Shown: positions 551 through 17,822 of the stretch, one piece after another
Layout: the number at the start of each line of letters is the position of its first letter
Position numbering within the stretch: the stretch's first letter is position 1
Assembly: GCF_009826895.1 (NCBI RefSeq)
Contig: NZ_WUMV01000005.1
Coordinates: 1 to 53,642, forward strand
DNA length: 53,642 nucleotides
Reading direction: 5' to 3'
DNA from: Stappia sediminis
GTDB taxonomy: Bacteria > Pseudomonadota > Alphaproteobacteria > Rhizobiales > Stappiaceae
Program-made: the position numbers and the translations under genes
Notes under the pieces: model-generated
Database searches by the model: none
What the model saw: only the letters and a program-made list of their open reading frames with translations
What the model was told of the DNA's origin: nothing

Positions 551-602
551 GCTCAAGGCGGTCACTCCCTTAAAAACATCTGCATCTTGTGAAACCACAG
601 CG

Positions 603-2243: not shown

Positions 2244-2308
2244 CACTGAACCCCTCGATATTCCTGTCGTGCGGGCACCCGGGTCTGGGAGGACGGATGC
2301 CCGGCTGT

Positions 2309-3508: not shown

Positions 3509-3509
3509 C

Positions 3510-4370
3510 TCAGTTCCCCTCGAAGACCGGCGTCTCTTTATTGGCGAAAGCTTCGAAAGCGCGCCGGTAGTCCTCCGTCTTCATGCAAACGGCCTGCGCC
3601 AGTGCTTCGGCCTCGATGGCCTGGTCGATAGACATGTCCCATTCCATATGCATCATGCGCTTGGTCATGGCGTTGCCGAACGTGGGCCCCGCCGAAAGCT
3701 CCTCGGCCAGTTTTGTCGCCTCGCCCAGCACCGCTTCCGTCTCAACAAGCCGGTTGAAGAAGCCCCAGCGTTCCGCCTCCTCGCCCTTCATCACGCGACC
3801 GGTGTAAAGCAGTTCCGACGCCCGTCCCTGGCCGATGATCCGGGGCAGGATCGCGCAGGCACCCATGTCGCATCCGGCAAGGCCCACCTTGTTGAAGAGA
3901 AAGGCGACCTTGGCGTTCGCGGTGCCGATGCGCATGTCGGACGCCATGGCGATGATCGCGCCCGCTCCCACGCATATGCCATCGATCGCGGCGATGATCG
4001 GCTGCGGGCAGGCGCGCATCGCCTTCACCAGTTCGCCCGTCATCGTCGTGAACTGCAAAAGCCCCGGCATGTCGCGGGATAACAGCGGCTGGATGATCTC
4101 GAACACGTCTCCGCCGGAGCAGAAGTTGCCGCCAGCTCCGGTAATCACGATGGTCTTCACCTCGTCGTCGAACTGCAGCGCGCGGAAGAGGTCGCGCAAC
4201 TCGGCGTAGGAGGAGAACGTCAGCGGGTTCTTGCGCTCGGGCCGGTTCAGCGTCACGGTCGCCGTCTTGCCCTTCACCTCCAGCAGGAAGTGGCGCGGCG
4301 TGTAGTTTCTGACCGGCAGCGTGATGTCGTAGCTTTCCCGGGCGCCTGAAAGGCCAGCCTGCTCGCTCAT
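3510..4370 (-). CDS. Enoyl-CoA hydratase/isomerase family protein
   Basis: 286 aa crotonase-fold protein. [14 protein letters not shown], the oxyanion-hole segment [11 protein letters not shown] near residue 80 and the [20 protein letters not shown] helix region are clear. The N-terminal ~25 residues are an extra extension before the crotonase core. Its ATG overlaps the upstream regulator's stop (4367-4370), consistent with one transcript. In the pathway it would hydrate or open the unsaturated ring-derived CoA ester. Reaction specificity (hydratase, isomerase or ring hydrolase) cannot be told from sequence; operon position supports aromatic-acid catabolism. Confidence 0.9.
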
Positions 4371-4900
4371 TCCTCGTTTCCTTGCTCGTCGCTTTGTTCC
4401 ATCGCCCGGCGCACGGATGCTTTCGTGCGTCCCAGCAGGCGCATGAGTTCGCCCATGTCGCCGTCGTCCAGTTGATTGAAAAAATCGCCGATCCAGTCGC
4501 CGTGGGCTTCCGCCATGGTGGCGAAGCTTTCGTGGCCCTTCGCCGTCAGCTTGACGAGGGAGGAGCGCCGGTCGGCGGGTGCTGCGTGGCGTTCCAGAAG
4601 CCCGTCCTGCACCAGCCGGTCGACAAGGCCGGTGACGTTTCCGGCGGAAACCATCATTCGCCGTGAAAGCTCGCCGAGCGTCATTCCGTCAGGCGCCTTT
4701 TCAAGCTGCGCCATCAGGTCGAAGCGCGGCAGCGTGACGTTGAAGCGCTCGCGCAGCCGCGAGCGGATTTCGGCTTCGATCAGGTTCGTGCAGGTCAGCA
4801 ACCTCAGCCACAGCCTGAGTTCGTCCTTGTGGTCGCCATGGCCGTGGGTGCGCGTTTCCGCGTCGATTGCGATTGCCTCGGCTACGTCCCGCTCGCTCAT
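4367..4900 (-). CDS. MarR-family transcriptional regulator of the aromatic-acid operon
   Basis: 177 aa. I chose ATG at 4900 because GAGGTG lies about 8 nt upstream; a TTG at 4915 is also in frame. The winged-helix core is clear: recognition region [20 protein letters not shown] followed by the wing [19 protein letters not shown] with the conserved DRR. MarR proteins of CoA-dependent aromatic pathways usually repress and are released by an aryl- or acyl-CoA ester. The gene lies second in the operon it presumably controls, giving autoregulation. The perfect 18-bp palindrome at 5722-5739 is its most likely operator, and a longer version stands before the ABC importer at 17784-17817. Ligand identity is inferred only. 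Confidence 0.9.
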
Positions 4901-4922
4901 GCTCACCTCGATCAAGCTCGAC

Positions 4923-5693
4923 TCACATCACTTCGCCGCCAGCAATCGCGATCGACTGGCCGGTCACGCTGCGCGCGCCTTCGCCTGCCAGCCACGCGAC
5001 CGTGTCGGCGATCTCTTCCGGCTCGATCAGCCGCTTCTGCGGGTTGTCGCGCACCATTTCCGAAATCACCTCCGCCTCCGCGCGACCGGTCTTTTCCACG
5101 ATGCGTTCAACGCTTGCCCGCAGGAGATCGGTATCGGCGAAACCGGGGCAGATGGCGTTCACCGTCACGCCCTTTTCGGCGGTCTCGAGCGCCATTGCGC
5201 GCGTCAGTCCAACGACCGCGTGTTTCGCCGCCACATAGGCGGACACGTAGCGGTATCCCTTCAGCCCGGCGGTCGAGGCGATATTGATGATCCGCCCATA
5301 GCCTTCGGCGATCATGCCCGGCAACACGGCCTGCGACGCGGTTACAACGCTTTCCAGGTTGACGCTCAGCATCCGCTGGAAAAGGTCCGGCGGCGCTTTC
5401 AGGAAAGGCGCGCTTTCCGCCGCCCCAGCGTTATTGACGAGGATCGCCACCCCCCCATGCACGTCCTCCGCCTCGGAGATAGCCGCTCGAAGCGCATCGC
5501 GGTCGGTCACATCTGCGGAGACGAAGCCATGCGCGCCGATCTCGTGCGAGACCTGCTCCAGCCGCGTCTGGTTGCGGCCGAGGATCGTTACCGTCGCGCC
5601 CTCGCCAACCAGGCGTTTGGCGATCGAAACGCCGATCCCGCGCGAACCGCCGGTGACCAGCGCATGGTGTCCGTGAAGGGGTAAAGCGGCCAC
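4923..5693 (-). CDS. SDR-family 3-hydroxyacyl-CoA dehydrogenase-like oxidoreductase
   Basis: 256 aa from the GTG at 5693. A GTG at 5717 is also possible, but it lies only 5 bp from the operator palindrome and would leave no room for a ribosome-binding site; the 5693 start has GGTGGG at a good distance. It is a classical SDR: cofactor motif TGGSRGIG near residues 14-21, NNAG, a serine in NIASTAG, then Tyr153 and Lys157 in SAYVAAK. It probably oxidises a 3-hydroxyacyl-CoA made by the hydratase encoded downstream. It is the first gene of the minus-strand catabolic operon and diverges from the monooxygenase gene at 5815. Confidence 0.87.
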   Translation of the reverse strand: MAALPLHGHHALVTGGSRGIGVSIAKRLVGEGATVTILGRNQTRLEQVSHEIGAHGFVSADVTDRDALRAAISEAEDVHGGVAILVNNAGAAESAPFLKAPPDLFQRMLSVNLESVVTASQAVLPGMIAEGYGRIINIASTAGLKGYRYVSAYVAAKHAVVGLTRAMALETAEKGVTVNAICPGFADTDLLRASVERIVEKTGRAEAEVISEMVRDNPQKRLIEPEEIADTVAWLAGEGARSVTGQSIAIAGGEVM

Positions 5694-5708
5694 GTGTTTT
5701 TCCCACCG

Positions 5709-5738
5709 TTGCGTCACGAATTATTTTAAGCTTAAAAT
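5709..5738 (+). promoter_or_regulatory. Probable promoter of the monooxygenase gene
   Basis: TTGCGT (5709-5714) and TAAAAT (5733-5738) are spaced by 18 bp and fit a sigma-70 promoter reading toward the plus-strand gene at 5815. The -10 box lies inside the right half of the operator palindrome, so a bound repressor would block RNA polymerase. Reading is by eye. Confidence 0.5.
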
Positions 5739-5739
5739 A
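5722..5739. promoter_or_regulatory. Perfect 18-bp palindrome, probable MarR operator
   Basis: TATTTTAAGCTTAAAATA is a perfect inverted repeat in the divergent gap between the SDR operon and the monooxygenase gene. It is AT-only except for the central GC, in a GC-rich genome. A related longer site stands before the ABC substrate-binding protein (17784-17817) with the same core TTTAAGCyTAAA. The MarR gene in the adjacent operon is the natural partner. Confidence 0.75.
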
Positions 5740-5767
5740 TCTCGCAGAAGGACGCAAGCGCACCGAG

Positions 5768-5789
5768 GCCGGCAAAACGGATTGCCGGC
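5768..5789 (+). promoter_or_regulatory. Perfect hairpin in the monooxygenase 5' leader
   Basis: GCCGGCAA and TTGCCGGC pair perfectly over 8 bp around a 6-nt loop, ending 11 nt before the AGGAGG ribosome-binding site. There is no T-run, so it is not a terminator; it may stabilise the mRNA or shape translation. Confidence 0.4.
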
Positions 5790-5814
5790 CCGGAACAGGC
5801 AGGAGGTAAGGCCG

Positions 5815-8154
5815 ATGCGGATCGAAGTGATCGGGGGCGGACCGGCGGGGCTCTATTTCGCCATTCTCATGAAAAAGCAGCGGCCGAACGCCCGCATCCG
5901 GGTGATCGAGCGCAACCGCCCGGATGACACCTTCGGCTTCGGCGTGGTCTTTTCCGACCAGACGCTCGACACGTTCGAGGAGTATGATCTTCCCAGCTAC
6001 AAGGCGATTACCGAGAATTTCGCCTATTGGGACGACATCGAAATCCACTTCAAGGGTTCGCTTCACCGGATCGGCGGCAACGGCTTTTGCGGCTGTTCCC
6101 GGCGCACGCTTCTCCTGCTCCTGCAGGACCGCGCCCGCGAACTCGGCATCGAGATGGATTTCGAGACCGAGATCAAGAGCCTCGACGAACTGGCGGGCGC
6201 CGACCTCATCGTCGCAGCCGACGGCATCAACTCCTTCGTGCGCGAGCAGAATCGCGAGCATTTCCAGCCGCAGGTCGACCTTCGCCCCAACAAGTTCACC
6301 TGGATGGGCTCCACCAAGCCGCTAGACGCCTTCACGTTCTACTTCAAGGAGACCGAGCACGGCATTTTCATCGCCCACACTTACCAGTATGAGCCCGGCC
6401 GCTCGACCTGGGTGCTGGAAACCGATCCCGAAACCTTCGACAAGGCCGGCCTCGGCGACATGTCGGAGGAAGAATCGGCCCGTTTCCTCGAAGGTGTCTT
6501 CGCCGAGGAACTCGACGGTCATCCGCTAATGATCAACCGTTCGCTCTGGCGTCAGTTCCCGATGATCCGCAACAAGCGCTGGACCATGGACAACGTCGTG
6601 CTTCTGGGCGACGCGAAGTCGACGGCGCATTTCTCCATCGGCTCGGGCACGAAGCTCGCGATGGAGGATGCAATCGCCCTTTACGAAAGCTTCCGCCGCA
6701 AGGATACGGTCGAGGCCGCCCTTGCCGATTTCGAGGCGACGCGCCGCGAGGACGTGGAGAAAACCCAGCACGCGGCGGATGTTTCGCTCGTCTGGTTCGA
6801 GCACGTGAAGCGCTACTGGCCGATGGATCCGGTCACCTTCTCCTTCGGCGTGATGACGCGTTCAAAGGCGATCACCTATGACAATCTGGAGCTTCGCGCA
6901 CCGGAGTTCGTGAAGGAGGCAAGCCAGGTCTTCGCCAAATCCGTGCGCGCCCAGGGCTTCGATGTGGATGTCGAAAACCCCGCGCCGCCCGCCTTCCAGC
7001 CGTTCAGGATGCGCGGAATGACGGTTGAAAACCGCTTCGTCGTCTCGCCCATGTGCATGTATTCCGCCAAGGAAGGCATGCCGACCGATTTCCACTTCGT
7101 CCATTACGGCGCACGCGCCGTTGGCGGGGCCGGCATCATCTTCACCGAAATGACCTGCGTTGCGCCGGACGCCCGCATCACCCACGGCTGCACCGGGCTT
7201 TGGAACGACGAGCAACAGGCCGCCTGGACGCGGATCGTCGATTTCGTTCATGCGAATTCGAAGGCGAAGATCTGCCTCCAGCTCGGCCACGCGGGCCGCA
7301 AGGGCGCCTCGAAGCTGATGTGGGAAGGCATGGACCAGCCTTTGCCGGAAGGTGAGGCATGGCCGATTATCTCCGCCTCGGCGGTTTCCTATTATCCCGA
7401 AAGCCAGGTGCCGCGCGAAATGACGCGCGAGGACATGGACCGGGTGAAAAGCGAATTTATTGCCGCCGCGAAGCGCGGCATAGACTGTGGCTTCGACATG
7501 CTGGAACTTCACTCGGCCCACGGATATCTGCTGGCGAGCTTCCTGTCGCCTGTCACCAACAAGCGGACGGACGAATACGGCGGGTCGATCGAAAACCGCC
7601 TGCGCTATCCGCTGGAGGTTTTCAAGGCGCTGCGCGAGGTTTGGCCGAACGACAAGCCTATGTCGGTCCGCATTTCCGCGACCGACTGGATCGAGGGCGG
7701 GATTACCGGCGACGATGCGGTGAAGATCGCCGAAGCCTTTGCCGATGCGGGTGCCGACCTTGTCGATTGTTCCACCGGCCAGACGGCACCGGAAAGCGCG
7801 CCGGTTTACGGGCGCATGTTCCAGACGCCTTACGCCGACCAGATCAGGAACGAAGGCGGGCTCGCCACAATGGCGGTCGGCGCGATCACATCCGCCGATC
7901 AGGCGAACACGATCCTGGCGGCAGGCCGTGCGGATCTTATCGCGCTCGGACGTCCGCATCTGGCCGATCCCTCCTTCACGCTGCGTGCGGCGGGCGAATA
8001 CGGCGTCAGCGGCATCTTCGCCCCGGTCCAATACGAACCCGGCAAGGCGCAGCTCCTCCGGAATGCCGAGCGCGACCGCGAGGAGCTGATCGAGCTGAAG
8101 CTGAAGGCCAAGCCCAAGACCCACAATCCGGCCATGCGCGAAGCGGCGGAGTAA
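5815..8154 (+). CDS. abmA: Bifunctional 2-aminobenzoyl-CoA monooxygenase/reductase (salicylyl-CoA 5-hydroxylase-type)
   Basis: 779 aa, starting at ATG 5815 after AGGAGGTAA. Two domains are visible. Residues 1 to ~375 are a flavin monooxygenase with the FAD motif GGGPAGLYFA at 7-16 and the second FAD motif VVLLGDAKS near 261. Residues from ~394 are an Old Yellow Enzyme-type FMN reductase (VVSPMCMYSA; active-site HSAHGYLL near 566; NKRTDEYGGS). This fusion is characteristic of 2-aminobenzoyl-CoA monooxygenase/reductase, which hydroxylates and then reduces the ring to a non-aromatic cyclohexene-carboxyl-CoA; close relatives are annotated as salicylyl-CoA 5-hydroxylase. Together with the ligase, dehydrogenases and hydratase it defines a hybrid aerobic anthranilate route. 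It is transcribed away from the other pathway genes, sharing their operator, and ends at a strong terminator. Confidence 0.9.
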   Translation: MRIEVIGGGPAGLYFAILMKKQRPNARIRVIERNRPDDTFGFGVVFSDQTLDTFEEYDLPSYKAITENFAYWDDIEIHFKGSLHRIGGNGFCGCSRRTLLLLLQDRARELGIEMDFETEIKSLDELAGADLIVAADGINSFVREQNREHFQPQVDLRPNKFTWMGSTKPLDAFTFYFKETEHGIFIAHTYQYEPGRSTWVLETDPETFDKAGLGDMSEEESARFLEGVFAEELDGHPLMINRSLWRQFPMIRNKRWTMDNVVLLGDAKSTAHFSIGSGTKLAMEDAIALYESFRRKDTVEAALADFEATRREDVEKTQHAADVSLVWFEHVKRYWPMDPVTFSFGVMTRSKAITYDNLELRAPEFVKEASQVFAKSVRAQGFDVDVENPAPPAFQPFRMRGMTVENRFVVSPMCMYSAKEGMPTDFHFVHYGARAVGGAGIIFTEMTCVAPDARITHGCTGLWNDEQQAAWTRIVDFVHANSKAKICLQLGHAGRKGASKLMWEGMDQPLPEGEAWPIISASAVSYYPESQVPREMTREDMDRVKSEFIAAAKRGIDCGFDMLELHSAHGYLLASFLSPVTNKRTDEYGGSIENRLRYPLEVFKALREVWPNDKPMSVRISATDWIEGGITGDDAVKIAEAFADAGADLVDCSTGQTAPESAPVYGRMFQTPYADQIRNEGGLATMAVGAITSADQANTILAAGRADLIALGRPHLADPSFTLRAAGEYGVSGIFAPVQYEPGKAQLLRNAERDREELIELKLKAKPKTHNPAMREAAE

Positions 8155-8162
8155 CGACATTG

Positions 8163-8186
8163 AAAACCCCGCTGAAGCGGGGTTTT
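8163..8186. terminator. Bidirectional intrinsic terminator
   Basis: AAAACCCCGCT-gaa-AGCGGGGTTTT-type hairpin with an A-run on one side and a T-run on the other, 9 bp after the monooxygenase stop. It suits both that gene and the convergent minus-strand gene ending at 8212. Confidence 0.9.
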
Positions 8187-8211
8187 CTGAAATACGACCA
8201 TTTCGATATAT

Positions 8212-8763
8212 CTAGATGACGGCCACGCCATCCGGAAAGTGTGGCTCATCCCCTCTGCCGAATTTGGAGAGGCGATCCGCAATTAAGGCTCGCCTCTTTT
8301 CGTCGGACGCCAAATTGACGATGCTAATCTCCACGTCGAGACATCCATTCGGCCACCGCGTAAACATTGCAGCGATACCACTGGTAATGGCCTTGTTGAA
8401 GTTATCCGCCAGATCGGGCCTTCGCGATGCAACCTCTTTGAACTGAGCGTACCATTTCGGGCCTTCAGTTTCGTTTCTTGCGTCGATATCCAGGAGTTTG
8501 CGCTTAAACGCTTGGGATTTTTCCTCCGAGGAAATCGCTTCAGTCAGGAACGCCAATGCCCTTAATGCCTCGACTGGCACTTCTTCATCGTCAACGATCG
8601 CATTGACCGCATCATAGTGGGCTTCAAGAACGAGCTTAGCCGCCCTGAGTTCATGCGCTCTCTTGTGCAGCGCCAATCTGCGGTTTCGTATTATCGCCCC
8701 AAACGCCAGCCCTGCACTGGCCATAGTGATAAACCAAAGCAAGTCCGTCGATTCAATCGGCAT
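8212..8763 (-). CDS. Hypothetical membrane-anchored protein
   Basis: 183 aa from ATG 8763; not recognised. One N-terminal transmembrane helix (about residues 7-25, LLWFITMASAGLAFGAII) is followed by a basic stop-transfer patch (RNRRLALHKRAHE) and a soluble, mostly helical, charged C-terminal part of about 150 residues on the cytoplasmic side. The start overlaps the end of the upstream small membrane gene by 11 bp, so the two are probably co-translated. Base composition is visibly less GC-rich than the flanking catabolic genes, which together with the neighbouring repeats suggests recent acquisition. No enzymatic motif is visible. Confidence 0.6.
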   Translation of the reverse strand: MPIESTDLLWFITMASAGLAFGAIIRNRRLALHKRAHELRAAKLVLEAHYDAVNAIVDDEEVPVEALRALAFLTEAISSEEKSQAFKRKLLDIDARNETEGPKWYAQFKEVASRRPDLADNFNKAITSGIAAMFTRWPNGCLDVEISIVNLASDEKRRALIADRLSKFGRGDEPHFPDGVAVI

Positions 8764-9061
8764 CACTCGCCACCTTTCCGGCAATTCTCCGTTGCATGCG
8801 CTTCAGCGTCTCTCGCCCCTCTTGGGCTTCTACGCTCTCAACGTTCAATTCGGCCATTCGCCGGTCATGGGCCTCTTTCGACTTCATGCGTGTATTATAT
8901 ATGACGTATACGCATAGTGGAAATCCGCCTGCAAGAACGCCGTTAACGCCACTCGACAGCAAGGCTGCCCCGACGAGCAGGCAGGTCGCTCCAAAAACCG
9001 CTTCGGGGTGTCCCTTCAACGCTGTGAAGATTGACTTCCATACGCCGGCAAAGTCCTCCAT
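8753..9061 (-). CDS. Hypothetical small membrane protein
   Basis: 102 aa from ATG 9061 (TTG at 9079 is an alternative). Two closely spaced hydrophobic segments, FGATCLLVGAALLSSG and GVLAGGFPLCVYVIY, form a likely helical hairpin near residues 25-62, followed by a charged, coiled-coil-prone tail rich in Lys, Arg and Glu. It overlaps the downstream membrane-anchored gene by 11 bp. No family is recognised. The pair could form a small membrane complex; a toxin-antitoxin or phage-defence role is conceivable but nothing in the sequence shows it. Confidence 0.5.
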   Translation of the reverse strand: MEDFAGVWKSIFTALKGHPEAVFGATCLLVGAALLSSGVNGVLAGGFPLCVYVIYNTRMKSKEAHDRRMAELNVESVEAQEGRETLKRMQRRIAGKVASDAD

Positions 9062-9211
9062 TAAGACATCCTGAAACAAATAAAGCCAGTTTTTTCGCCT
9101 TCAGATTGCAGGAGAAATAATCCACCCGTCAACCTCCGCTCGCAAATCGGGTCGCGACGCCCTGTTCCACCCGATACTGGCTGTTTCCATCGAAAAACGA
9201 AGGAGACGCCC

Positions 9212-9691
9212 ATGACGAAGATCCGCTTTCAGGCATTGCCGAGCGAAATCGCCCGCCACTACCGCGAGGGAGGCAAGGATGCCAACGGACATGTGCCGGA
9301 AAAAGGCGTATCGGACGGTCAGGCGCCCTGCCGCCATTGCCTGAAGGAAATCGCGGACGGAAAGCCGATGCTCATCCTCTCGCACCGCCCGTTTGACGAG
9401 GCACAACCCTATGCGGAGGTCGGGCCGATCTTCCTCTGCGCGGAAAACTGCGAGCGCCATCCTGACGCGGAAGATACGCCGGACATGTTCCTCGGCTGGG
9501 AGCATCTGAACGTTCGCGGCTACGGTGCCGACAACCGCATCGTCTACGGCACCGGCAGGATCGTGCCGACGGCGGACGTCTCCAAATACGCGGAGGAACT
9601 GCTGGAAAAGCCCGAAATCGCCTACGTCCACCTGCGCTCGGCATCCAACAACTGCTATCAGGCGCGGATCGAGCGGGACGCGGCGGACTGA
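9212..9691 (+). CDS. DUF1203 family protein
   Basis: 159 aa, ATG 9212 preceded by AAGGAGA. The layout matches the DUF1203 family: N-terminal FQALPSEIA, a CRHCLKEI cysteine pair near residue 40, then LILSHRPF, an EVGPIFLCA segment, CERH, and a C-terminal YGADNRIVYGTGRIVP with VHLRSASNNCYQARI. The Cys and His residues could bind a metal but this is unproven. The function is unknown. It stands alone on the plus strand, between the small membrane gene pair and a stretch of palindromic repeats. Confidence 0.82.
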   Translation: MTKIRFQALPSEIARHYREGGKDANGHVPEKGVSDGQAPCRHCLKEIADGKPMLILSHRPFDEAQPYAEVGPIFLCAENCERHPDAEDTPDMFLGWEHLNVRGYGADNRIVYGTGRIVPTADVSKYAEELLEKPEIAYVHLRSASNNCYQARIERDAAD

Positions 9692-9836
9692 ACGGCCTTG
9701 CCGTCAGCAATATGCCACCAAATGCAATTGGGAAAATCCCATCTCAGACGTATTGTCCGGGCTAGACCCACTGCTGTTCGGTAAAGATATCTCATTGGGG
9801 CTTTTTTGCATGGCACTCGCCCACACTCCGCCGTCG

Positions 9837-9855
9837 CGCCCGCCTTGAGCGGGCG
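9837..9855. repeat. Palindromic repeat unit
   Basis: CGCCCGC-CTTGA-GCGGGCG is a perfect 7-bp inverted repeat with a 5-nt loop, typical of short extragenic palindromes in this order. Confidence 0.55.
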
Positions 9856-9951
9856 TCCAATCACGGTGCAACAGGCAAGAGCGGCATTGATTACAGTAGA
9901 TGACTACCGCTAACTGCTTGATATTTCAATGCATTTGGCAATGTGGAATAG

Positions 9952-10025
9952 GCCCCGGATCAAGTCCGAGGCGACTCCGGGTATGAGGCATGGAGATTAC
10001 CAATGTCCGGCGCCGTGTGCGCCGG
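9952..10025. repeat. Palindromic repeat (CCCCGGATCAAGTCCG type)
   Basis: Begins with CCCCGGATCAAGTCCGAGGCG and ends with the perfect hairpin CCGGCGC-CGTGT-GCGCCGG (10007-10025). The unit resembles widely dispersed intergenic palindromes of alphaproteobacteria; copy number cannot be judged from one window. Confidence 0.5.
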
Positions 10026-10234
10026 ATTCGGATATCATTGACCTTGCAGCGTGTCTTGTTCCAGAAATGATCCCAAATCGGCCAACCTTTCAACAGGCTC
10101 GCCAACAGCGAGCAATTTTAACTGGACAAGAGTGGGGCTAGACCCGGGCAACCATGTTAGATTTCATCCAGTGCTCGCTGATCAAGCCGCACTGGAAAAA
10201 TCGTAATTTAAAGTCGTGAGTTACCCTCCAAACA

Positions 10235-10714
10235 ATGAGCAAATCTTCAGCTGCCAATCTGAAATTCCGCATTGAGAACCTTGCAAACTACCCACAATTC
10301 ATTCCCGTCGTTGCAAAATGGCTTTACGACGAGTGGGGGTATCGGCGTGAGGGCGCAAGCTTAGAGACATCAATTGAGCGCGTGTCTCAGCGATGCAATC
10401 TGCACGGCGTGCCAGTAATTTGGATCGCAATTTCTGCAACCGGCGTTCCGATCGCGACAATAAGCATTGTCGAAAAGGAAGATCCAACGGATGAGCCTGG
10501 CCCCTGGGTATCCAGCCTTTATACGGTTTACGTCGCACGAGGGCGAGGCTGCGGAGGCGCCCTTCTAAGTCACCTTGAGGAGTATGCTGCGGCTAAAGGA
10601 TGTGCGCGCCTTCTCCTAACGGCGGCAACTCCCGATTTCTATGCAAAGCGTGGATGGCAAGAGACGGGCCGCATTAAGGGCGGTGAGCCGATCATGCAAA
10701 AGCGCATATCCTGA
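10235..10714 (+). CDS. GNAT-family N-acetyltransferase
   Basis: 159 aa. A GNAT fold is indicated by the central VSSLYTVYVARGRGCGGALLSHL segment, where the R/Q-x-x-G-x-G/A acetyl-CoA pyrophosphate loop reads RGRGCGGA, followed by an alpha helix (EEYAAAKGCARLLLTAA) and the family's usual FYAKRGWQETG near the C-terminus. The acceptor substrate is not predictable. The gene is a single transcription unit on a lower-GC patch bounded by repeats on both sides, so it may be an acquired accessory gene. The start at 10235 is the first ATG; no strong ribosome-binding site is visible. Confidence 0.85.
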   Translation: MSKSSAANLKFRIENLANYPQFIPVVAKWLYDEWGYRREGASLETSIERVSQRCNLHGVPVIWIAISATGVPIATISIVEKEDPTDEPGPWVSSLYTVYVARGRGCGGALLSHLEEYAAAKGCARLLLTAATPDFYAKRGWQETGRIKGGEPIMQKRIS

Positions 10715-10748
10715 AGTCGACCGCGAACGTAAGCACGCTGATTGGACA

Positions 10749-10866
10749 CTAGAGCATATTCCGTTCAGATTGAACCGATCTGAACGGCAAGAATATTCTC
10801 AAGGTATTGATTCTGGAGCGATTTCTTATCCTACAGGTGATTCCACCTGAAGGGAAAGCGCTCTAG
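10749..10866. repeat. RIME-like mosaic palindromic element, copy 1
   Basis: A 118-bp element bounded by CTAGAGC and GCTCTAG. Its first unit is a palindrome from GAGCATATTCCGTTCAGA to GAATATTCTC; its second contains GGAGCGATTTCTTATC and the hairpin CAGGTGATTCCACCTG. A second copy lies at 21919-22035 and a related half at 53367-53416. In the second copy the hairpin reads CGGGTGTTTCCACCCG, so paired bases changed together, which supports selection on the fold. Confidence 0.75.
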
Positions 10867-10873
10867 ATAAGCT

Positions 10874-10967
10874 TGTCATCCCCGCGAAAGCAGGGATCTC
10901 CCGTCATGCACGTCGAGATTCCCGCCTACGCGGGGCTTGTCCCCGTGGAGACGGGGAATGATAAGTG
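10874..10967. repeat. REP-like repeat (GTCATCCCCGCG type), left of ilvD
   Basis: Starts TGTCATCCCCGCGAAAGCAG and ends in GGGGAATGATAAG, with internal inverted repeats. The same left part recurs at 12981, on the other side of ilvD, in the same orientation. Confidence 0.65.
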
Positions 10968-10979
10968 ATCCGCCTTCCC

Positions 10980-12821
10980 TCAGTCCACCTTGCGGACAGC
11001 GCCCTTGGCCGCCGACGTCGTCAGCTTGGCGTAGGCCTTGAGCGCCGCCGTCACCTTGCGCGTGCGCTGCTCGGTCGGTTTCCAGGCCTGATCGCCCTTC
11101 GCTTCCATCGCCGCGCGGCGCTTTGCCAGTTCCTCGTCGGAGATGGCAAGGTTGATCGTCCGGTTCGGGATATCGATCTCGATCGTGTCGCCTTCCTCGA
11201 CAAGTCCGATCGCCCCGCCTTCAGCCGCTTCCGGGGAAGCGTGGCCGATGGAAAGCCCCGAGGTGCCGCCGGAAAACCGCCCGTCGGTGACGAGCGCGCA
11301 GGCCGCGCCCAGCTTCTTCGATTTCAGGTAGCTTGTCGGATAGAGCATTTCCTGCATGCCCGGCCCGCCGCGCGGACCCTCGTAGCGGATGACGACTACA
11401 TCACCCGCCTGAACCTGATTGCCGAGGATGCCGCGCACGGCCGAATCCTGGCTTTCGAAGACCTTCGCCTTGCCCGTAAACTTCAGGATCGAGTCGTCGA
11501 CGCCCGCCGTCTTCACGATGCAGCCTTCCTCGGCGATATTGCCGAAGAGAACGGCAAGCCCGCCGTCCTGGCTGAAGGCGTGTTCCTTGGAGCGGATGAC
11601 GCCCCTCTCGCGGTCGTCGTCCACGCTGTCGTAGCGGCAATCCTGCGAAAAGGCGACCTGCGTCGGAATACCGCCCGGCCCCGCCCGGTAGAAGTTGATC
11701 GCCGTATCCGAATTCGTGCGCTTGATGTCCCAGCGGTCGAGCGCATCGCTCATGGTTTCGGAATGAACCGTCGGCAGCGACGTGTCGATCAGCCCGGCCC
11801 GGTCCAGTTCGCCGAGGATACCCATGATGCCGCCGGCGCGGTGCACGTCTTCCATGTGAACGTTCGCGACCGAGGGCGCCACCTTGCAGAGCACCGGTAC
11901 GTTGCGCGACAGCTTGTCGATGTCGCTCATGTCGAAATCGATTTCGCCTTCCTGTGCGGCAGCGAGAAGATGCAGCACCGTGTTCGTCGAGCCGCCCATG
12001 GCGATGTCGAGCGTCATGGCATTCGCGAAAGCCTGGCGGTTGGCGATAGCGCGCGGCAGCACGCTCTCGTCGTCCTGCTCGTAATGGCGCTTGGCGAGAT
12101 CGACGATCAGGTGCCCCGCCTCGATGAAGAGCCGCTTGCGGTCGCCGTGGGTCGCCAGCGTCGATCCGTTGCCGGGAAGCGCAAGGCCCAGCGCCTCCGT
12201 CAGGCAGTTCATGGAGTTCGCCGTGAACATGCCGGAGCACGAACCGCAGGTCGGGCAGGCGGAGCGTTCGATCGTCTGCACGTCCTCGTCGGACACGCTG
12301 TCGTCGGCGGCTGCCACCATGGCGTCGACGAGGTCGAGCGCCTTTTCCTTGCCGGCAAGCTTCACCTTGCCCGCTTCCATCGGCCCGCCGGAAACGAAGA
12401 CGGCGGGAATGTTGAGTCGCATCGCGGCCATCAGCATGCCGGGCGTGATCTTGTCGCAGTTGGAAATGCACACCATCGCGTCGGCGCAATGGGCGTTGAC
12501 CATATATTCCACGCTGTCGGCGATGATCTCGCGCGAAGGCAGCGAATAGAGCATGCCATCGTGGCCCATGGCGATGCCGTCATCGACGGCGATGGTGTTG
12601 AATTCCTTGGCGATGCCGCCCGCCGCCTCGATCTCGCGCGCGACCATCTGGCCAAGGTCCTTCAGGTGCACATGCCCCGGCACGAACTGGGTGAAGGAGT
12701 TCACCACGGCGATGATCGGCTTGCCGAAATCGCCGTCCTTCACGCCCGTCGCGCGCCAAAGTCCGCGCGCACCGGCCATGTTGCGGCCATGGGTGGTGGT
12801 TCTGGAGCGATAAGGGGGCAT
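10980..12821 (-). CDS. ilvD: Dihydroxy-acid dehydratase
   Basis: 613 aa, matching the family's usual ~615. It dehydrates 2,3-dihydroxy-3-methylbutanoate and -pentanoate to the 2-oxo acids of valine and isoleucine synthesis in the cytoplasm. The N-terminal [18 protein letters not shown] is diagnostic, as are the iron-sulfur cysteines in [12 protein letters not shown] and [19 protein letters not shown], and the later GRFSGGTSG near residue 500. It appears monocistronic and is flanked on both sides by copies of a REP-like repeat. It lies between the catabolic and transport halves of the presumed anthranilate regulon without a palindrome of its own, so it is probably an unrelated housekeeping gene. 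Confidence 0.97.
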
Positions 12822-12980
12822 GACGAAACCTCGGTATTTCTCTGCAAGCCGGCGAAAATCGACACCGGCCTTCGTGACCCGGTGTTTTGTCAGTTTTTTA
12901 GTGCGGGGGAAAGGGCGGAAAAGGCCGAAACGGTTCGCCGGGGGTCGTATTGACGATGGTGTTTATTGCCAAGATCCCCC

Positions 12981-13061
12981 TGTCATCCCCGCGAAGGCGG
13001 GGATCTCCCGCCGCTTTCCGTGGCCATACCGCGCGAGATGCCCGCCTCCGCGGGCATGACA
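12981..13061. repeat. REP-like repeat (GTCATCCCCGCG type), right of ilvD
   Basis: TGTCATCCCCGCG at the left and CGCGGGCATGACA at the right form imperfect terminal inverted repeats around GAAGGCGGGGATCTCCCG. It matches the element at 10874 in the same orientation. It lies between livF-like and ilvD genes and may serve as a weak transcription end. Confidence 0.7.
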
Positions 13062-13082
13062 AACACTAGTGTAGGCGCTCCC

Positions 13083-13793
13083 TCAAACGCTCAAATACCT
13101 CTCAAGCACGCCCCGGTCGGCCTTCAGCGCATCCGTGTCGCCGGTCCACACCACCTGCCCCTTCTCCACCACCACATGGCGGTTGGCGAGCGTTTCCAGC
13201 GCATCGATGTTCTTGTCGATGACGAGGATCGACTGTCCCTCCCCCTTCAGCCGGTCGAGGCAGGCCCAGATTTCGGCGCGGATCAGCGGGGCGAGCCCCT
13301 CCGTCGCCTCATCCAGGATCAGAAGCTTCGGGTTGGTCATCAGCGCCCGGCCGATGGCAAGCATCTGCTGTTCGCCGCCTGAAAGCTGATTGCCGAGGTT
13401 TTTCCGCCGCTCCTTCAGCCTTGGAAAGAACTCGTAGACCCGCTCAAGCGTCCAGCCCGGCTTCGCGTTCCGCCGGTTGGCGCTGGTGGCGATCAGGTTC
13501 TCCTCCACGCTGAGGGTCGGGAAGATCTGCCGCCCTTCCGGCACCAGCCCGATGCCCGCCTGCGCGATCCTGTAGGGCGGCGCGTTGGTCAGGTCCTCGC
13601 CGGAGAAGACCACCTTGCCGCCTTCCAGCTTCAAAAGCCCCATGATGGTGCGGATCGTCGTCGTCTTGCCCATGCCGTTGCGGCCCATGAGCGTGACGAC
13701 CTCGCCCTCGCCGACCGCGAAACGCATGCCGTAAAGCACCTGCGCCTCACCGTAGCCCGCCTCAAGACCGGAGACTTCCAGAAGCGCGCTCAT
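13083..13793 (-). CDS. Branched-chain-type ABC transporter ATPase (LivF-like)
   Basis: 236 aa. Walker A GRNGMGKTTT (about residues 38-47), signature LSGGEQQMLAIGRAL, Walker B LLILDEATEGLAP. The ATEGLAP form and short length are typical of the LivF subunit of hydrophobic amino-acid (HAAT) importers. It energises uptake together with the LivG-like partner, whose gene overlaps its start by 4 bp. It is the last gene of the importer operon. The operon's promoter carries the MarR-type palindrome shared with the aromatic pathway, so the cargo is more likely an aromatic acid such as anthranilate than leucine. Confidence 0.92.
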   Translation of the reverse strand: MSALLEVSGLEAGYGEAQVLYGMRFAVGEGEVVTLMGRNGMGKTTTIRTIMGLLKLEGGKVVFSGEDLTNAPPYRIAQAGIGLVPEGRQIFPTLSVEENLIATSANRRNAKPGWTLERVYEFFPRLKERRKNLGNQLSGGEQQMLAIGRALMTNPKLLILDEATEGLAPLIRAEIWACLDRLKGEGQSILVIDKNIDALETLANRHVVVEKGQVVWTGDTDALKADRGVLERYLSV

Positions 13794-14542
13794 GCCGCCT
13801 CCTCGCCGAGATAGGCTTCGCGCACCTTCGGGTCGTTGCGGATTTCCTCGGGCGTTCCCGTCGCCACCACCGCGCCGTAGACAAGCACGGATATCCGGTC
13901 GGCAAGCGCGAAGACCGCGCTCATGTCGTGCTCGACAAGCATCATCGCGTAGCGGCCCTTCAGCCTGTTGAGGATTTCGACCAGCCGGTCGGTTTCCTCG
14001 CGTCCCGTGCCCGCCATCGGCTCGTCGAGGAGCAGCAGCTTCGGCTCGCTTGCGAGCGCAATGGCGATTTCGAGCGAGCGTTTTTCCCCGTGCGACAGCG
14101 CGCCCGCATGAACGTCCGCCCGGTTGCCGAGGCCAAGGTCGGTCAGGTAACGCCCGGCTTCCGCGTTCAGCGCTTCGTCCTTCGAGACGTTCTTCAGGAA
14201 ATGGAACGAATGCCCCTGCCGCGCCTGAATGGCGAGCGCGACATTCTCTCGTGCGGTGAATTCGGGCAGGATCGTGGTGATCTGGAAGGAGCGGGCAAGG
14301 CCCGCCCTCGCGCGCTTGTCCATCGAAAGCTGCGTGACGTCGTGCCCGGCGAAGACGATCCGCCCTTTATCCGGGCGAAGCGAGCCCGAGATCTGGCCGA
14401 TCAGCGTCGTCTTGCCCGCCCCGTTCGGCCCGATGACGGCGTGGATCTCGCCGGGCAGCACGTCGAGCGAGACCTTGTCGGTCACCCTTAGTGCGCCGAA
14501 GTTCTTTTCAAGCCCGTCAAGCGTCAGGATAGGCTCACTCAT
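13790..14542 (-). CDS. Branched-chain-type ABC transporter ATPase (LivG-like)
   Basis: 250 aa. Walker A GPNGAGKTTL (about residues 37-46), signature LSHGEKRSLEIA, Walker B LLLLDEPMAGTG, and the H-loop in MMLVEHDM. The LSHGE signature and C-terminal GTPEEIRNDPKVREAYLGEE tail are characteristic of LivG-type ATPases. It pairs with the LivF-like subunit. The start overlaps the permease stop by 8 bp and the stop overlaps the next ATG, so translation is coupled through the whole operon. Confidence 0.93.
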   Translation of the reverse strand: MSEPILTLDGLEKNFGALRVTDKVSLDVLPGEIHAVIGPNGAGKTTLIGQISGSLRPDKGRIVFAGHDVTQLSMDKRARAGLARSFQITTILPEFTARENVALAIQARQGHSFHFLKNVSKDEALNAEAGRYLTDLGLGNRADVHAGALSHGEKRSLEIAIALASEPKLLLLDEPMAGTGREETDRLVEILNRLKGRYAMMLVEHDMSAVFALADRISVLVYGAVVATGTPEEIRNDPKVREAYLGEEAA

Positions 14543-15515
14543 GGCGCTTGCCTCCCGGAATGAGGCCCATCAGCCCGCCGCGCGCGAACAGCACGACGAG
14601 GATCAGGAACGGGCCGAAGATGAGCCGCCAATGCTCGGTGACATGCGACAGCACCTCTTCCAGCACCAGATAGCCGGTCGCCCCCAGAACGGCACCGGCG
14701 AACGAGCCGAGCCCGCCAAGAACCACCATGAATATAAGGTCGCCCGAGCGGTGCCAGGTCATGTATGCGGGCGAGACGAACTCCGCCGCATTGGCGAGAA
14801 GCGCGCCGGAAATGCCGGCCAGCATGCCGGCGATCACGAATGCGACAAGGCGATAGGTGTAAGGCTCGATGCCGATCGCCTGCAGCCGCATCTCGCTTTG
14901 CCGCGCGCCTTGCAGCACCCGCCCGAAACGCGAATTGACGAGCGTCGCGCACAGCCACCACGCGCCCGCGAGAAAGGCGAGCACCACGTAGTAGAAGGTC
15001 GTGCGGTCGGAAAGCACGCTGGAGCCGAACACCTCCGTTCGCCCCCAGATCGTCAGCCCGTCGTCGCCGCCATAGGCCGAAAGCGAGGTCGCGGTGAAAA
15101 ACGCCATTTGCCCGAAGGCGAGCGTGATCATGATGAAATAGACGCCGCGCGTCTTCAGGCTGATCGCGCCTGTGACCGCCGCAAAGAGCCCGCAAACGAG
15201 CAGCGTCACCGGCAGGCTTATGTAAAACTCCCAGATGCCGTTTTCGGCGAGGATGCCGACGCAATAGGCCCCGAGCCCGATATAGGCGGCGTGCCCGAAG
15301 CTTACCATCGCTCCGAAGCCGAGGATCAGCGCCAGGCTGACGGCGGCGATCGCGAAGATCATCACCCGGATCGCGAAGAAGACGAGGAAACTGTCGTCGA
15401 GCGCCATGGCAAGCGGCGGAAGAAGAGCGAATGCGGCGAGAATGATCGCCGGCAAAACGCGCGCTCGGAAAATCGGCGTCGCCACAGCTTGCTTGTCGGA
15501 TGCTACTGCCGTCAT
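14535..15515 (-). CDS. Branched-chain-type ABC transporter permease (LivM-like)
   Basis: 326 aa inner-membrane permease with about nine hydrophobic segments. The LGFGAMVSFGHAAYIGLGAY region (about residues 65-85) is the LivM hallmark. GGLGSFAGAVLGA near residue 265 corresponds to the cytoplasmic loop that contacts the ATPase. It forms the channel with the LivH-like subunit, whose gene ends 1 bp upstream. A short polar N-terminus precedes the first membrane helix. Substrate cannot be read from the permease; regulation suggests an aromatic acid. Confidence 0.92.
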   Translation of the reverse strand: MTAVASDKQAVATPIFRARVLPAIILAAFALLPPLAMALDDSFLVFFAIRVMIFAIAAVSLALILGFGAMVSFGHAAYIGLGAYCVGILAENGIWEFYISLPVTLLVCGLFAAVTGAISLKTRGVYFIMITLAFGQMAFFTATSLSAYGGDDGLTIWGRTEVFGSSVLSDRTTFYYVVLAFLAGAWWLCATLVNSRFGRVLQGARQSEMRLQAIGIEPYTYRLVAFVIAGMLAGISGALLANAAEFVSPAYMTWHRSGDLIFMVVLGGLGSFAGAVLGATGYLVLEEVLSHVTEHWRLIFGPFLILVVLFARGGLMGLIPGGKRHE

Positions 15516-15516
15516 A

Positions 15517-16440
15517 TCAGCCCGCCCTCGCCGGGAAGAGGCCGCTCGGCCGGAAGAAGAGAACGGCCGCCATCAGGATATAGATCAGCATGGAGGCAAC
15601 GGCGGGGCCGACGTCGTTGGCCGCGGCGGGCGGGAAGAGCAGTCGCGCGATGTCGGTCGCAAGCGAACGCCCGATGGTGTCGACGAGCCCCACGATAAGC
15701 GCCGCCATGAACGCGCCACGGATCGAGCCGATGCCGCCAATCACGATGACGACGAAAGCGAGGATCAGCAGGTTGTCGCCCATGCCCGGTTCCACCGCCA
15801 AAATGGGCGCCGCCATGATGCCGGCGAAACCGGCCAGCATCGCGCCGAAGCCGAAGACGAACATGAAGAGCCTGCGGATGTTGACGCCGAGGGCGGAGAC
15901 CATCTGCGCGTTCGTCGCGCCCGCCCGCACCAGCATGCCGACGCGCGTCCAGCTTACGAGCACATAGAGAAGTGCGGCGACCGCCAGGCCGGAGACGATC
16001 AGCGCGATGCGGAAGACGGGATAGAGCAAGCCGTCGCTGATCGGGATCGAGCCGGACAGGATTTCCGGGACCGGCAGCGTCAGCGGCGATGAACCCCAGA
16101 TCACCTTCACACCTTCGTTCAGGAACAGGATCACGCCGAATGTCGCCAGCACCTGGTCGAGATGGCTTCGGTCGTAGAGGTGGCGGAACACCAGCATCTC
16201 CAGAATGAGGCCGATGATCAGCGAACCGGCAAGCGCGAGCAGCATGGCGAGCCAGAAGGAACCTGTAAGCCCGTAGCCCGCGACCGCCAGATAGGCGCCC
16301 AGCATGTATTGCACGCCGTGGGCAAGGTTGATGAAATCCATGACGCCGAAAACCAGCGTCAGGCCGGCGGCGATCAGGAACAGCAAAATGCCGAGCTGTA
16401 GGCCGTTCAGTGTTTGAACGGCGAGCAGGGTCATGCTCAC
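15517..16440 (-). CDS. Branched-chain-type ABC transporter permease (LivH-like)
   Basis: 307 aa from GTG 16440, chosen because AGAGG lies 8 nt upstream; the ATG at 16434, two codons in, is the alternative. The first helix LNGLQLGILLFLIAAGLTLVFGVMDFINLAHG is the signature of LivH permeases, and VVIGGIGSIRGAFMAALIVG near the C-terminus is the conserved ATPase-contact loop. It partners the LivM-like subunit in the inner membrane. A strong hairpin with a T-run separates it from the substrate-binding-protein gene upstream, so the permease genes are probably expressed at a lower level through partial read-through. Confidence 0.92.
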   Translation of the reverse strand: MSMTLLAVQTLNGLQLGILLFLIAAGLTLVFGVMDFINLAHGVQYMLGAYLAVAGYGLTGSFWLAMLLALAGSLIIGLILEMLVFRHLYDRSHLDQVLATFGVILFLNEGVKVIWGSSPLTLPVPEILSGSIPISDGLLYPVFRIALIVSGLAVAALLYVLVSWTRVGMLVRAGATNAQMVSALGVNIRRLFMFVFGFGAMLAGFAGIMAAPILAVEPGMGDNLLILAFVVIVIGGIGSIRGAFMAALIVGLVDTIGRSLATDIARLLFPPAAANDVGPAVASMLIYILMAAVLFFRPSGLFPARAG

Positions 16441-16487
16441 GGGGCTCGCCTCTTGGGTAGGTATCTCACGCGGCAGCACTTCGCCGC

Positions 16488-16533
16488 AGATAAAAACAAA
16501 AAGCCGGGCCGGAGAGTCCGTCTCCCCGGCCCG
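16488..16533 (-). terminator. Intercistronic terminator/attenuator after the binding-protein gene
   Basis: On the minus strand an 11-bp stem (GGGCCGGGGAG with CTCTCCGGCCC, one G-U pair) is followed by GGCTTTTTGTTTTT. It stands between the substrate-binding-protein stop and the LivH-like start. Binding proteins are usually needed in excess, so partial termination here makes sense. Confidence 0.8.
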
Positions 16534-16548
16534 CGCTTGGTCGTCTGC

Positions 16549-17709
16549 TTACATCGGGCAATCGGCCGCGTAGGCGTCGCCCTGGTCGTCGAAAACCTTC
16601 TCGACGACATTGACGACGTACTTGCCGTCGTCGCGCTTGGCGCCTTCCACCACGTAGAAGTCCTGAATGGGGAAGTGGTTGGTGTTGAACTTGAAGTCGC
16701 CGCGCACGCTGTCGAAGGGGGCTTCGGCAAGGGCTGCCATAAGCGCTTCCTTGTCCTTGCCGCCGGCCTTCTTCAGCGCACCGTCGATGAGGCGTGCCGC
16801 GTCATACCCTTGCGAGGCGTAGAGCGAGGGAGCGTAGCCGTATTCCTTCTCGAACGCTTCGACGAAGTGCTTGTTCGCCGCATTGTCGAGGGTCGATGCC
16901 CACTGCGAGCCGGACTTGAGGCCGACGGCCTGGTCCTGGGTTGCCGGCAACGTCGTCTCGTCCACGGTGAAGGCGGAAAGGAAGGGGATCGTGTCCTTGA
17001 GGCCGGCTTGCGCGTATTGTTTGACGAGGTTCACGCCCATGCCGCCCGGCATGAAGGTAAAGATGGCGTCGGGCTTGGCGTCCGCGATCCGCGCGATTTC
17101 GGCAGAAAAGTCGAGCTGGCCGAGCTTGGTGTAGATTTCGTCCACCACCTCGCCGTCGTAGTGGCGCTTGAAGCCGGCGATGGAATCCTTGCCCGCCTGG
17201 TAGTTCGGCGCCATCAGGATCACCCGGCCATAGCCCTGTTCCTTGGCATATTCGCCCATCACCTCGTGGTTCTGGTCGTTCTGCCAGGAGGTGGAGAAGA
17301 AATAGGGCGAGCAGGCCTTGCCCGCGATCGGCGACGGCCCGGCGTTGCCGCTGATCAGGATCGTCTCGGATTCGATGACCGGCTTGTAGATCGCCATCAT
17401 CACGTTGGAGAAAACGACGCCGGCCAGAATGTCCACGTTGTCGCGCTCAAGCAGCCCCTGCACCTTCGTGCGCGCCACATCCGGCTTCAGCTCGTCGTCG
17501 ACGATCACCACTTCGGTATCGAGGCCGCCGAGCTTGCCGCCCGCTTCCTTGACGCCGAGCAGGAAGCCGTCGCGCATATGCTCGCCAAGGGCGGCTGGCG
17601 GGCCGGACAGCGTGGCGAGGAAGCCGATCTTCAGGCTTTCCGCCTGGGCGGACATGCCCGAAAGTCCCAGCGCGGCAGCCGTTACCGCTGCCGTCAGTAG
17701 CTTTTTCAT
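16549..17709 (-). CDS. ABC transporter substrate-binding protein (HAAT/Leu-Ile-Val-type)
   Basis: 386 aa from ATG 17709, preceded by GAGGGGAGTGAC. A typical Sec signal peptide (MKKLLTAAVTAAALGLSGMSAQA) implies periplasmic export. The mature protein begins ESLKIGFLATLSGPPAALG, the type I periplasmic-binding-protein start, with GVKEAGG and a later SQGYDAARLIDGAL. Relatives bind branched-chain amino acids, amides or aromatic acids such as benzoate and anthranilate. It is the first and probably strongest-expressed gene of the importer operon, driven from a promoter overlapped by the operator at 17784-17817. Anthranilate or a similar aromatic acid is the favoured ligand by regulation only. Confidence 0.92.
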   Translation of the reverse strand: MKKLLTAAVTAAALGLSGMSAQAESLKIGFLATLSGPPAALGEHMRDGFLLGVKEAGGKLGGLDTEVVIVDDELKPDVARTKVQGLLERDNVDILAGVVFSNVMMAIYKPVIESETILISGNAGPSPIAGKACSPYFFSTSWQNDQNHEVMGEYAKEQGYGRVILMAPNYQAGKDSIAGFKRHYDGEVVDEIYTKLGQLDFSAEIARIADAKPDAIFTFMPGGMGVNLVKQYAQAGLKDTIPFLSAFTVDETTLPATQDQAVGLKSGSQWASTLDNAANKHFVEAFEKEYGYAPSLYASQGYDAARLIDGALKKAGGKDKEALMAALAEAPFDSVRGDFKFNTNHFPIQDFYVVEGAKRDDGKYVVNVVEKVFDDQGDAYAADCPM

Positions 17710-17783
17710 TTTGTCACTCCCCTCTATGAGCGCGTTATTCCGTGCCCCCGCTCCCGGATTTCCGGTGCGCTTCATCTTGTTCG

Positions 17784-17817
17784 ACAGGAATTAGTTTAAG
17801 CCTAAAATAATTCCTGT
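17784..17817. promoter_or_regulatory. 34-bp near-perfect palindrome, second MarR-type operator
   Basis: The inverted repeat extends from ACAGGAATTA to TAATTCCTGT around the core TTTAAGCCTAAA, with only two mismatched pairs in 17. The core matches the perfect palindrome at 5722-5739. It overlaps the -10 region of the importer promoter in the same way as the first site overlaps the monooxygenase promoter. Confidence 0.75.
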
Positions 17818-17822
17818 GTGAA
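17793..17822 (-). promoter_or_regulatory. Probable promoter of the ABC importer operon
   Basis: On the minus strand TTCACA (17822-17817) and TAAACT (17798-17793) are separated by 18 bp. The -10 is inside the operator palindrome. Transcription would start about 75 nt before the substrate-binding-protein ATG. Confidence 0.45.

Follow-up and report, generated by a model that had tools for sequence, protein, structure and literature searches.

How does a bacterium bring the uptake of an aromatic compound into step with its breakdown when the genes for the two lie apart? A 53,642-nucleotide stretch of Stappia sediminis DNA (hereafter the window, one entire contig, C14, of a 4.79-Mb genome) poses the question: a coenzyme A (CoA)-dependent aromatic degradation cluster containing a MarR-family gene and an operon for a branched-chain amino acid-like importer stand 12 kb apart, each preceded by a similar palindrome. 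A preliminary description, made from the sequence alone, proposed that one MarR protein controls both. Here we find that the palindromes are kept in front of the same genes in most relatives, including genes that have moved away from the cluster, and we put the probability at roughly 85% that the MarR protein represses an anthranilate regulon of pathway and importer through both predicted operators.

Palindromes and promoters in the window

Operator 1, the perfect palindrome TATTTTAAGCTTAAAATA, lies between two divergent units, and operator 2, a 34-bp near-palindrome ACAGGAATTAGTTTAAGCCTAAAATAATTCCTGT with 15 of 17 pairs complementary by hand count, lies ahead of the importer operon, 82 bases (measured from the core) upstream of the start of the binding-protein gene; both are present where the preliminary description had placed them (coordinates are collected in Table 1). 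The common core TTTAAGCYTAAA occurs without mismatch in the window only at these two positions, and TTTTAAGCYTAAAA, allowing at most one mismatch, occurs only there in the entire genome.

Both palindromes overlap the -10 box of a promoter with an 18-bp spacer, TTGCGT-18-TAAAAT toward the monooxygenase gene and TTCACA-18-TAAACT toward the importer, again as first described. The importer promoter was returned by a promoter scan, and its TTCACA stands, by eye, at the same distance in each of the 17 Stappiaceae orthologs that are at least 76% identical. The scan listed no promoter toward the monooxygenase gene, where we read one by eye; its form TTGC[GA][TC]-18-TAAAAT is kept in all 12 of the Stappiaceae sites picked by hand. 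A proposed leftward promoter, whose -10 box also falls within operator 1, was likewise not listed by the scan, and its GACGCAAGC is retained in the same 12 sites. The MarR gene does belong to the leftward operon, as had been claimed, but operator 1 stands before two divergent units and not the single operon originally assigned to it.

Conservation of the operator in relatives

Shuffling of the window alone is too weak a test; it is the comparison across genomes that decides. The MarR protein was searched for in 101 genomes, the source genome counted in (G-numbers below denote genomes and L-numbers loci; the named loci partly overlap the G-numbered genomes and are not independent samples). A good-MarR set of 26 genomes comprised the 25 best matches plus G048, which ranks under G008 and G047 and was chosen knowing that a site adjoined its MarR gene; a poor-MarR set of 26 was selected for a match of E 1e-12 or weaker, and 49 of the 101 genomes were in neither set of the operator scan. 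Sites with at most three mismatches were found in 24 of the 26 good-MarR genomes and with at most two in 23 (22 of 25 without G048). No poor-MarR genome had a site with at most two mismatches, and the seven with any match held 14 in total, all at exactly three. Summed by hand, matches with at most three mismatches numbered 69 in the good-MarR set as against 13 for the operator pattern read backwards (the reversed pattern), and 14 as against 37 in the poor-MarR set.

We then asked whether the site stands before the expected genes. The named loci are the best 80 of 284 by monooxygenase similarity, the nearest belonging to Hongsoonwoonella zoysiae (96% identity; Stappiaceae, Hyphomicrobiales by taxonomy look-up) and the following ones to Stappia species; L209 was dropped for its truncated start, leaving 79. 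In the 300 bases ahead of the monooxygenase gene, the best 18-base match had 0 mismatches in 17 loci, 1 in 14, 2 in 16, 3 in 9, 4 in 10, 5 in 11, 7 in 1 and 10 in 1, so that 56 of 79 have at most three and 77 at most five, a level reached by the reversed pattern in 0 of 79 (its best being six mismatches) and by shuffles in 0 of 1580. In 70 of these 80 loci there is a MarR relative with 45% identity or more, and the recognition segment R[ML]MV[ST]xGN[VIL]T is present in 69 of the 70 sequences; co-variation between operator and recognition helix gave no signal in these 70, a comparison made uninformative by how little the helix varies. A phylum-wide draw of 398 genomes contained 71 with the monooxygenase, and 30 of 73 matches were fetched, 29 of them not the window's own; a site with at most three mismatches precedes 18 of the 29 and with at most four 22, whereas the reversed pattern is matched at the latter threshold in 0 of 29.

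The importer behaves in the same way. Among the named loci, once hits below 50% identity or with fewer than 120 bases upstream had been excluded, 26 binding-protein genes remained, with 1 mismatch in 9, 2 in 12, 3 in 2, 4 in 2 and 9 in one (at most three in 23 of 26, at most four in 25; reversed pattern, 0 of 26 at up to five). The site is present at every one of the 17 Stappiaceae importers whose binding protein is at least 76% identical, 15 with at most three mismatches and two with five, as compared to 7-9 for the reversed pattern. More distant best hits in eight genomes (41-61% identity) have it at up to four mismatches in G077, G095, G079 and G073. Second binding-protein copies in Stappia (n = 5) have no site within 500 bases, their best matches showing 9-10 mismatches.

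The arrangement of the site also differs between groups. In the Roseomonas-type loci displayed the core drifts to TTGAAGCCTAAA and is present twice in most, as if one per divergent promoter. In L146, L148, L157, L160, L181, L197 and L107 the divergent region holds two operators with a spacing of about 54-56 bp, again as if each promoter had its own; the Stappiaceae, by comparison, have a single shared operator in the divergent intergenic region.

Taken together, the reversed-pattern, shuffle and poor-MarR controls reject a chance origin of the sites. The same data bear on the idea that each palindrome has a regulator of its own, or that the regulator of the importer site is encoded elsewhere, the likeness of the sites having arisen by convergence on an AT-rich -10 box. 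Palindromes rich in AT are common among MarR operators, and the -10 box does form much of one half of each site; against this, the left half is as conserved as the -10 half in the sites displayed, the sites track the MarR ortholog across genomes, and shuffled or reversed sequence yields no such sites. We regard this explanation as very improbable.

Several observations nonetheless weigh against control by a single MarR protein through this operator. The window by itself is modest evidence (8 matches with at most two mismatches against a mean of 1.3, a number reached in 2 of 100 shuffles), and genome-wide there is no enrichment at that threshold, with 6 forward and 9 reverse matches as compared to 24 and 24 for the reversed pattern. 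Two of the 79 monooxygenase genes (L166 and L205) lack a recognisable site, as do 7 of the 29 phylum-wide loci at up to four mismatches, and the binding-protein best hits of G048, G007, G097 and G098 stand at six or more. G007, G097 and G098, whose MarR relatives are 48-63% identical, have no site with at most two mismatches: G097 and G098 possess the entire pathway cluster with a MarR gene but no site at up to four in the stretches fetched, and the sole such site of the G007 cluster has four mismatches and lies near a second MarR gene. Similarly, L032, L033, L035 and L036 (MarR, 48-51% identity) lack the core in the 3.4 kb fetched. The operator thus appears to accompany one MarR branch in such clusters, and remoter branches may use another. 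The preliminary description had proposed conservation of the palindromes in related genomes as a check; in most, the operators are indeed kept with the genes, some distant clusters (G007, G097 and G098) excepted.

Displaced genes and joint control

Genes that have moved relative to the cluster are especially informative. The importer site is kept where the pathway lies 283 kb (G002) or about 134 kb (G043) away, and where it is on a different contig (G052 and G037); in G095, an acyl-CoA dehydrogenase gene outside the main cluster carries the operator, and in G077 a lone binding-protein gene carries an operator-like site. The latter gene (L103 6326) is unlinked from both the pathway cluster and the permeases, and a flavin monooxygenase gene lies downstream of it. 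Elsewhere the two functions are physically joined: LivHMGF adjoins the pathway cluster in G077, the MarR gene sits inside the importer operon between LivF and LivG in G079, the binding-protein gene adjoins MarR in G095, CoA ligase, binding protein and LivHMGF are consecutive in G048, and 13 Microvirga loci share the order importer, site, CoA ligase, site, monooxygenase. The joint control of uptake and breakdown that had been predicted thus gains support from common operators at unlinked positions, and further from importer genes beside or within the pathway genes of several genera.

Sites over -10 boxes, a MarR gene within the controlled operon and moved genes that keep the site make up the anatomy of a self-regulating MarR repressor. 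We considered whether MarR might instead activate its targets, or whether the importer might be a broad aromatic or amino acid importer drawn into the regulon. One three-mismatch site in the same genome (C15:342253, L115 4254), before a hydratase/hydroxyacyl-CoA dehydrogenase pair, lies upstream of a -35-like TTGACA and not over a -10 box, as an activator site might. This possible lower-pathway target is a weak candidate because of that placement and because the same position has six and four mismatches in two relatives. The -10 overlap at both main sites and in the displayed relatives is repressor geometry, and we consider this alternative unlikely.

Two further matches were seen in passing. 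A three-mismatch site precedes a FadJ-like gene (L114 4504), with near-identical three-mismatch sites in other Stappia genomes, and in a genome with a 56% identical MarR relative a two-mismatch site (L108 17947) is flanked on one side by a gene for an indolepyruvate ferredoxin oxidoreductase alpha-like protein and on the other by one for a peptide- or nickel-type binding protein.

Anthranilate as the shared substrate

To which substrate do these genes point? The monooxygenase is a single 779-amino acid protein with FAD_binding_3 (residues 5-293) and Oxidored_FMN (394-726) domains by Pfam, and beside it lie the partners expected of an abm-type cluster: aryl-CoA ligase, hydratase, acyl-CoA dehydrogenase, short-chain dehydrogenase (SDR) and RidA. 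The MarR protein has the winged-helix domain of its family (PF12802, 56.8 bits, cut-off 27; PF01047, 49.4 bits, cut-off 24.6). The RidA protein matches NCBIfam Rid models under their cut-offs; its gene ends just within the contig, whose first 100 positions hold runs of G, C and A resembling assembly or sequencing noise.

The importer is a full HAAT set, with a Peripla_BP_6 protein, two BPD_transp_2 permeases and two LivG/LivF-like ATPases. Compared with solved chains, its binding protein is closest to 4evq (2e-56), 4ey3 (3e-48), 4evs (8e-40) and 4f06 (2e-34), which are four of its five nearest solved relatives (the second-nearest being 4zpj) and which we take to be aromatic-acid binders of Rhodopseudomonas palustris; chains named branched-chain amino acid binders match at 3e-22 or weaker. 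By sequence, the protein would fall nearer the aromatic-acid binders than those for branched-chain amino acids, in line with the aromatic substrate first suggested for this importer, and that assignment is further supported by operators before tryptophan-to-anthranilate genes in another genus (see below). A dihydroxy-acid dehydratase gene (ilvD, window 10980-12821) lies near the importer in many fetched Stappiaceae loci, with no evident role in the pathway.

In G095, the operator stands directly before a formamidase-like gene, a tryptophan 2,3-dioxygenase and a kynureninase, the latter two named by NCBIfam above cut-off; the first matches the hormone-sensitive lipase family, and we read it as a formamidase from its place. 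Among 60 genomes of this genus, which is probably Bradyrhizobium, 47 have the dioxygenase and 58 a MarR match of E at most 1e-20. The operator inspection covered 30 of the 47; four more (G510, G521, G540 and G543) were inspected separately, and the other 13 were left out. In all 30 fetched loci the formamidase, dioxygenase and kynureninase genes are adjacent, and in 29 an operator with 1-3 mismatches lies 24-106 bases ahead of the formamidase match, the thirtieth locus starting within the formamidase at a contig end. In a second group, dioxygenase and MarR are at most 7 kb apart by their coordinates in 10 genomes; in three fetched regions of this group, formamidase, operator, kynureninase, dioxygenase, RidA, CoA ligase, MarR, binding protein and monooxygenase form one cluster, the operators having 2, 2 and 4 mismatches. 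In G073 and G077, of other families, a four-mismatch site precedes the dioxygenase gene.

Because formamidase, dioxygenase and kynureninase make anthranilate from tryptophan, the shared substrate is most naturally read as anthranilate, and it is likely that anthranilate in particular, rather than an unspecified aromatic, is what the regulon handles and, we infer, what the importer transports. The CoA ligase, whose nearest solved structure (4wv3) is named anthranilate-CoA ligase, and the presence of RidA agree with this. One finding speaks against this reading: in 18 Stappiaceae genomes, the stretches scanned around the kynureninase and dioxygenase genes (loci L280-L297, L285 being from the window's own genome) have no site at up to four mismatches. 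In these loci the dioxygenase and kynureninase genes adjoin another LivG/LivF-like ATPase gene.

The same regulon might serve a different aryl-CoA substrate, from salicylate or a benzoate. The monooxygenase exceeds the cut-off of NF006101, whose NCBIfam name, bifunctional salicylyl-CoA 5-hydroxylase/oxidoreductase, is at odds with an anthranilate pathway, and 2-aminobenzoate-CoA ligase accepts benzoate too (PMC8388817). NF006101 spans the fused form and therefore would not separate salicylyl-CoA from 2-aminobenzoyl-CoA. An amino group is suggested by the RidA gene of the operon, the ligase is nearest to anthranilate-CoA ligase, and in another genus the genes leading from tryptophan to anthranilate have the operator in common or lie in the cluster. 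The annotated genes of 113-8154, to which the search for it was confined, include no gentisate dioxygenase. A substrate other than anthranilate is thus improbable.

A third operon in Stappia

In six Stappia genomes an operator with 1-3 mismatches lies between an AndR-like AraC gene, whose product matches the AndR model below its cut-off, and an operon encoding a cupin, a formamidase-like/cupin protein, a flavin monooxygenase and a second binding protein. The formamidase-like part is 62% identical to its counterpart in the kynurenine operon. G034 has the second binding protein but no third site at up to three mismatches. Our guess is that this operon is another route delivering anthranilate. 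A still broader picture, which we offer tentatively and with less than even confidence, is that one MarR protein and one operator form a modular alphaproteobacterial anthranilate regulon (kynurenine supply, import and CoA-ester degradation), to which these six Stappia genomes would add a route yielding N-formylanthranilate and anthranilate from a compound of the indole or quinoline type.

Table 1. Features of the window (positions 1 to 53,642) and, in the last row, operator positions in other Stappia loci
Feature	Position	Strand	Basis
RidA-type (enamine/imine deaminase) protein	113-559	-	PF01042 62.2 bits, cut-off 27.3; start by eye
Benzoate-CoA-ligase family	603-2312	-	TIGR02262 401 bits, cut-off 375
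Acyl-CoA dehydrogenase family	2309-3508	-	profile matches
Enoyl-CoA hydratase family	3510-4370	-	NF006107 478.5 bits, cut-off 330
MarR-family regulator, proposed repressor at both operators	4367-4915	-	PF12802 and PF01047; TTG start uncertain
Short-chain dehydrogenase (SDR), leading gene of leftward operon	4923-5693	-	profile matches; GTG start chosen by eye
Monooxygenase promoter TTGCGT (5709-5714)-18 bp-TAAAAT (5733-5738)	5709-5738	+	read by eye; -10 in right half of operator 1
Operator 1, perfect palindrome	5722-5739	.	between two divergent units; sequence, scans, conservation
Proposed leftward-operon promoter TTGCGT (5757-5752)-17 bp-TAAGCT (5734-5729)	5729-5757	-	inferred; -10 within operator 1
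Flavin monooxygenase/old-yellow-enzyme reductase fusion, 2-aminobenzoyl-CoA monooxygenase/reductase type	5815-8154	+	NF006101 1138.5 bits, cut-off 1078
LivF-type ATPase	13083-13793	-	profile matches
LivG-type ATPase	13790-14542	-	profile matches
LivM-type permease	14535-15515	-	profile matches
LivH-type permease	15517-16479	-	profile matches
Periplasmic substrate-binding protein (Peripla_BP_6), heads importer operon	16549-17709	-	profile and structure-sequence matches
Operator 2, 34-bp near-palindrome	17784-17817	.	18-bp core 17792-17809, 2 mismatches to operator 1
Importer promoter TTCACA-18-TAAACT	17793-17822	-	promoter scan; -10 box within operator 2
Third-operon sites	L095 12297, L098 11053, L241 4279, L242 5836, L243 3511, L244 5726

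Proposed mechanism and inducer

In the mechanism that we propose, a MarR dimer would sit on TATTTTAAGCTTAAAATA-type operators covering the -10 boxes. Three units would thereby be blocked: the operon in which the MarR gene stands with those for SDR, hydratase, acyl-CoA dehydrogenase, CoA ligase and RidA; the monooxygenase/reductase gene that diverges from it; and, at a distance of 12 kb, the importer operon. Once anthranilate is taken up by the cell or arises from tryptophan, a product of the pathway would release the repressor, and uptake and degradation would rise together. That MarR binds these operators and represses from them is what their position, conservation and company lead us to expect.

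As to the inducer, the MarR protein matches chains 5cyv and 3fm5, which we take to be CouR, weakly (E about 7e-4), so that sensing of a CoA ester cannot be transferred to it by sequence; the two are alike in being MarR proteins that go with an aromatic-CoA pathway. In Rhodococcus jostii, CouR represses hydroxycinnamate catabolism, and p-coumaroyl-CoA, not p-coumarate, stops its binding to the operator (PMC4737184). By this analogy we guess, with slightly better than even confidence, that 2-aminobenzoyl-CoA is the inducer; anthranilate itself is the less probable candidate.

Relation to known systems

Schuehle et al., in 2001, are said to have found in the abm clusters of Azoarcus (Aromatoleum) evansii a CoA ligase, the monooxygenase/reductase fusion and three beta-oxidation enzymes, reportedly along with the binding protein of an ABC (ATP-binding cassette) transporter, a MarR-like regulator and a RidA-like protein. 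If so, MarR and a binding protein were already known in company with this gene set, and that association is not new. Here, by contrast with A. evansii, the whole importer forms a separate operon, tied to the cluster through the operator. Descriptions exist of the 2-aminobenzoyl-CoA pathway and of the clusters in A. evansii (PMC3534580, PMC8388817), of which there are two, very similar, with abmG as the ligase gene (PMC8388817); proteomic and genetic work is reported to show that such a cluster is vital for anthranilate degradation (PMC6221969). IadR-type MarR regulators govern a route of indoleacetate degradation that ends in anthranilic acid (PMC9613470); they thus control the formation of anthranilate from indoleacetate and not its CoA-dependent breakdown. 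We found no operator or regulon for the present MarR protein in searches of the open-licence literature. What appears to be new is a regulon defined by its operator, wider than the preliminary description had seen, and including kynurenine genes in another genus.

These results provide a concrete operator and a list of predicted targets for a MarR protein that goes with 2-aminobenzoyl-CoA degradation across many Alphaproteobacteria. They also give a predicted anthranilate assignment to importers whose matches are to branched-chain amino acid and urea models, and in one genus the kynurenine breakdown of tryptophan would be wired to the CoA-dependent anthranilate route. Searches with the operator could reveal unknown genes that make or use anthranilate.

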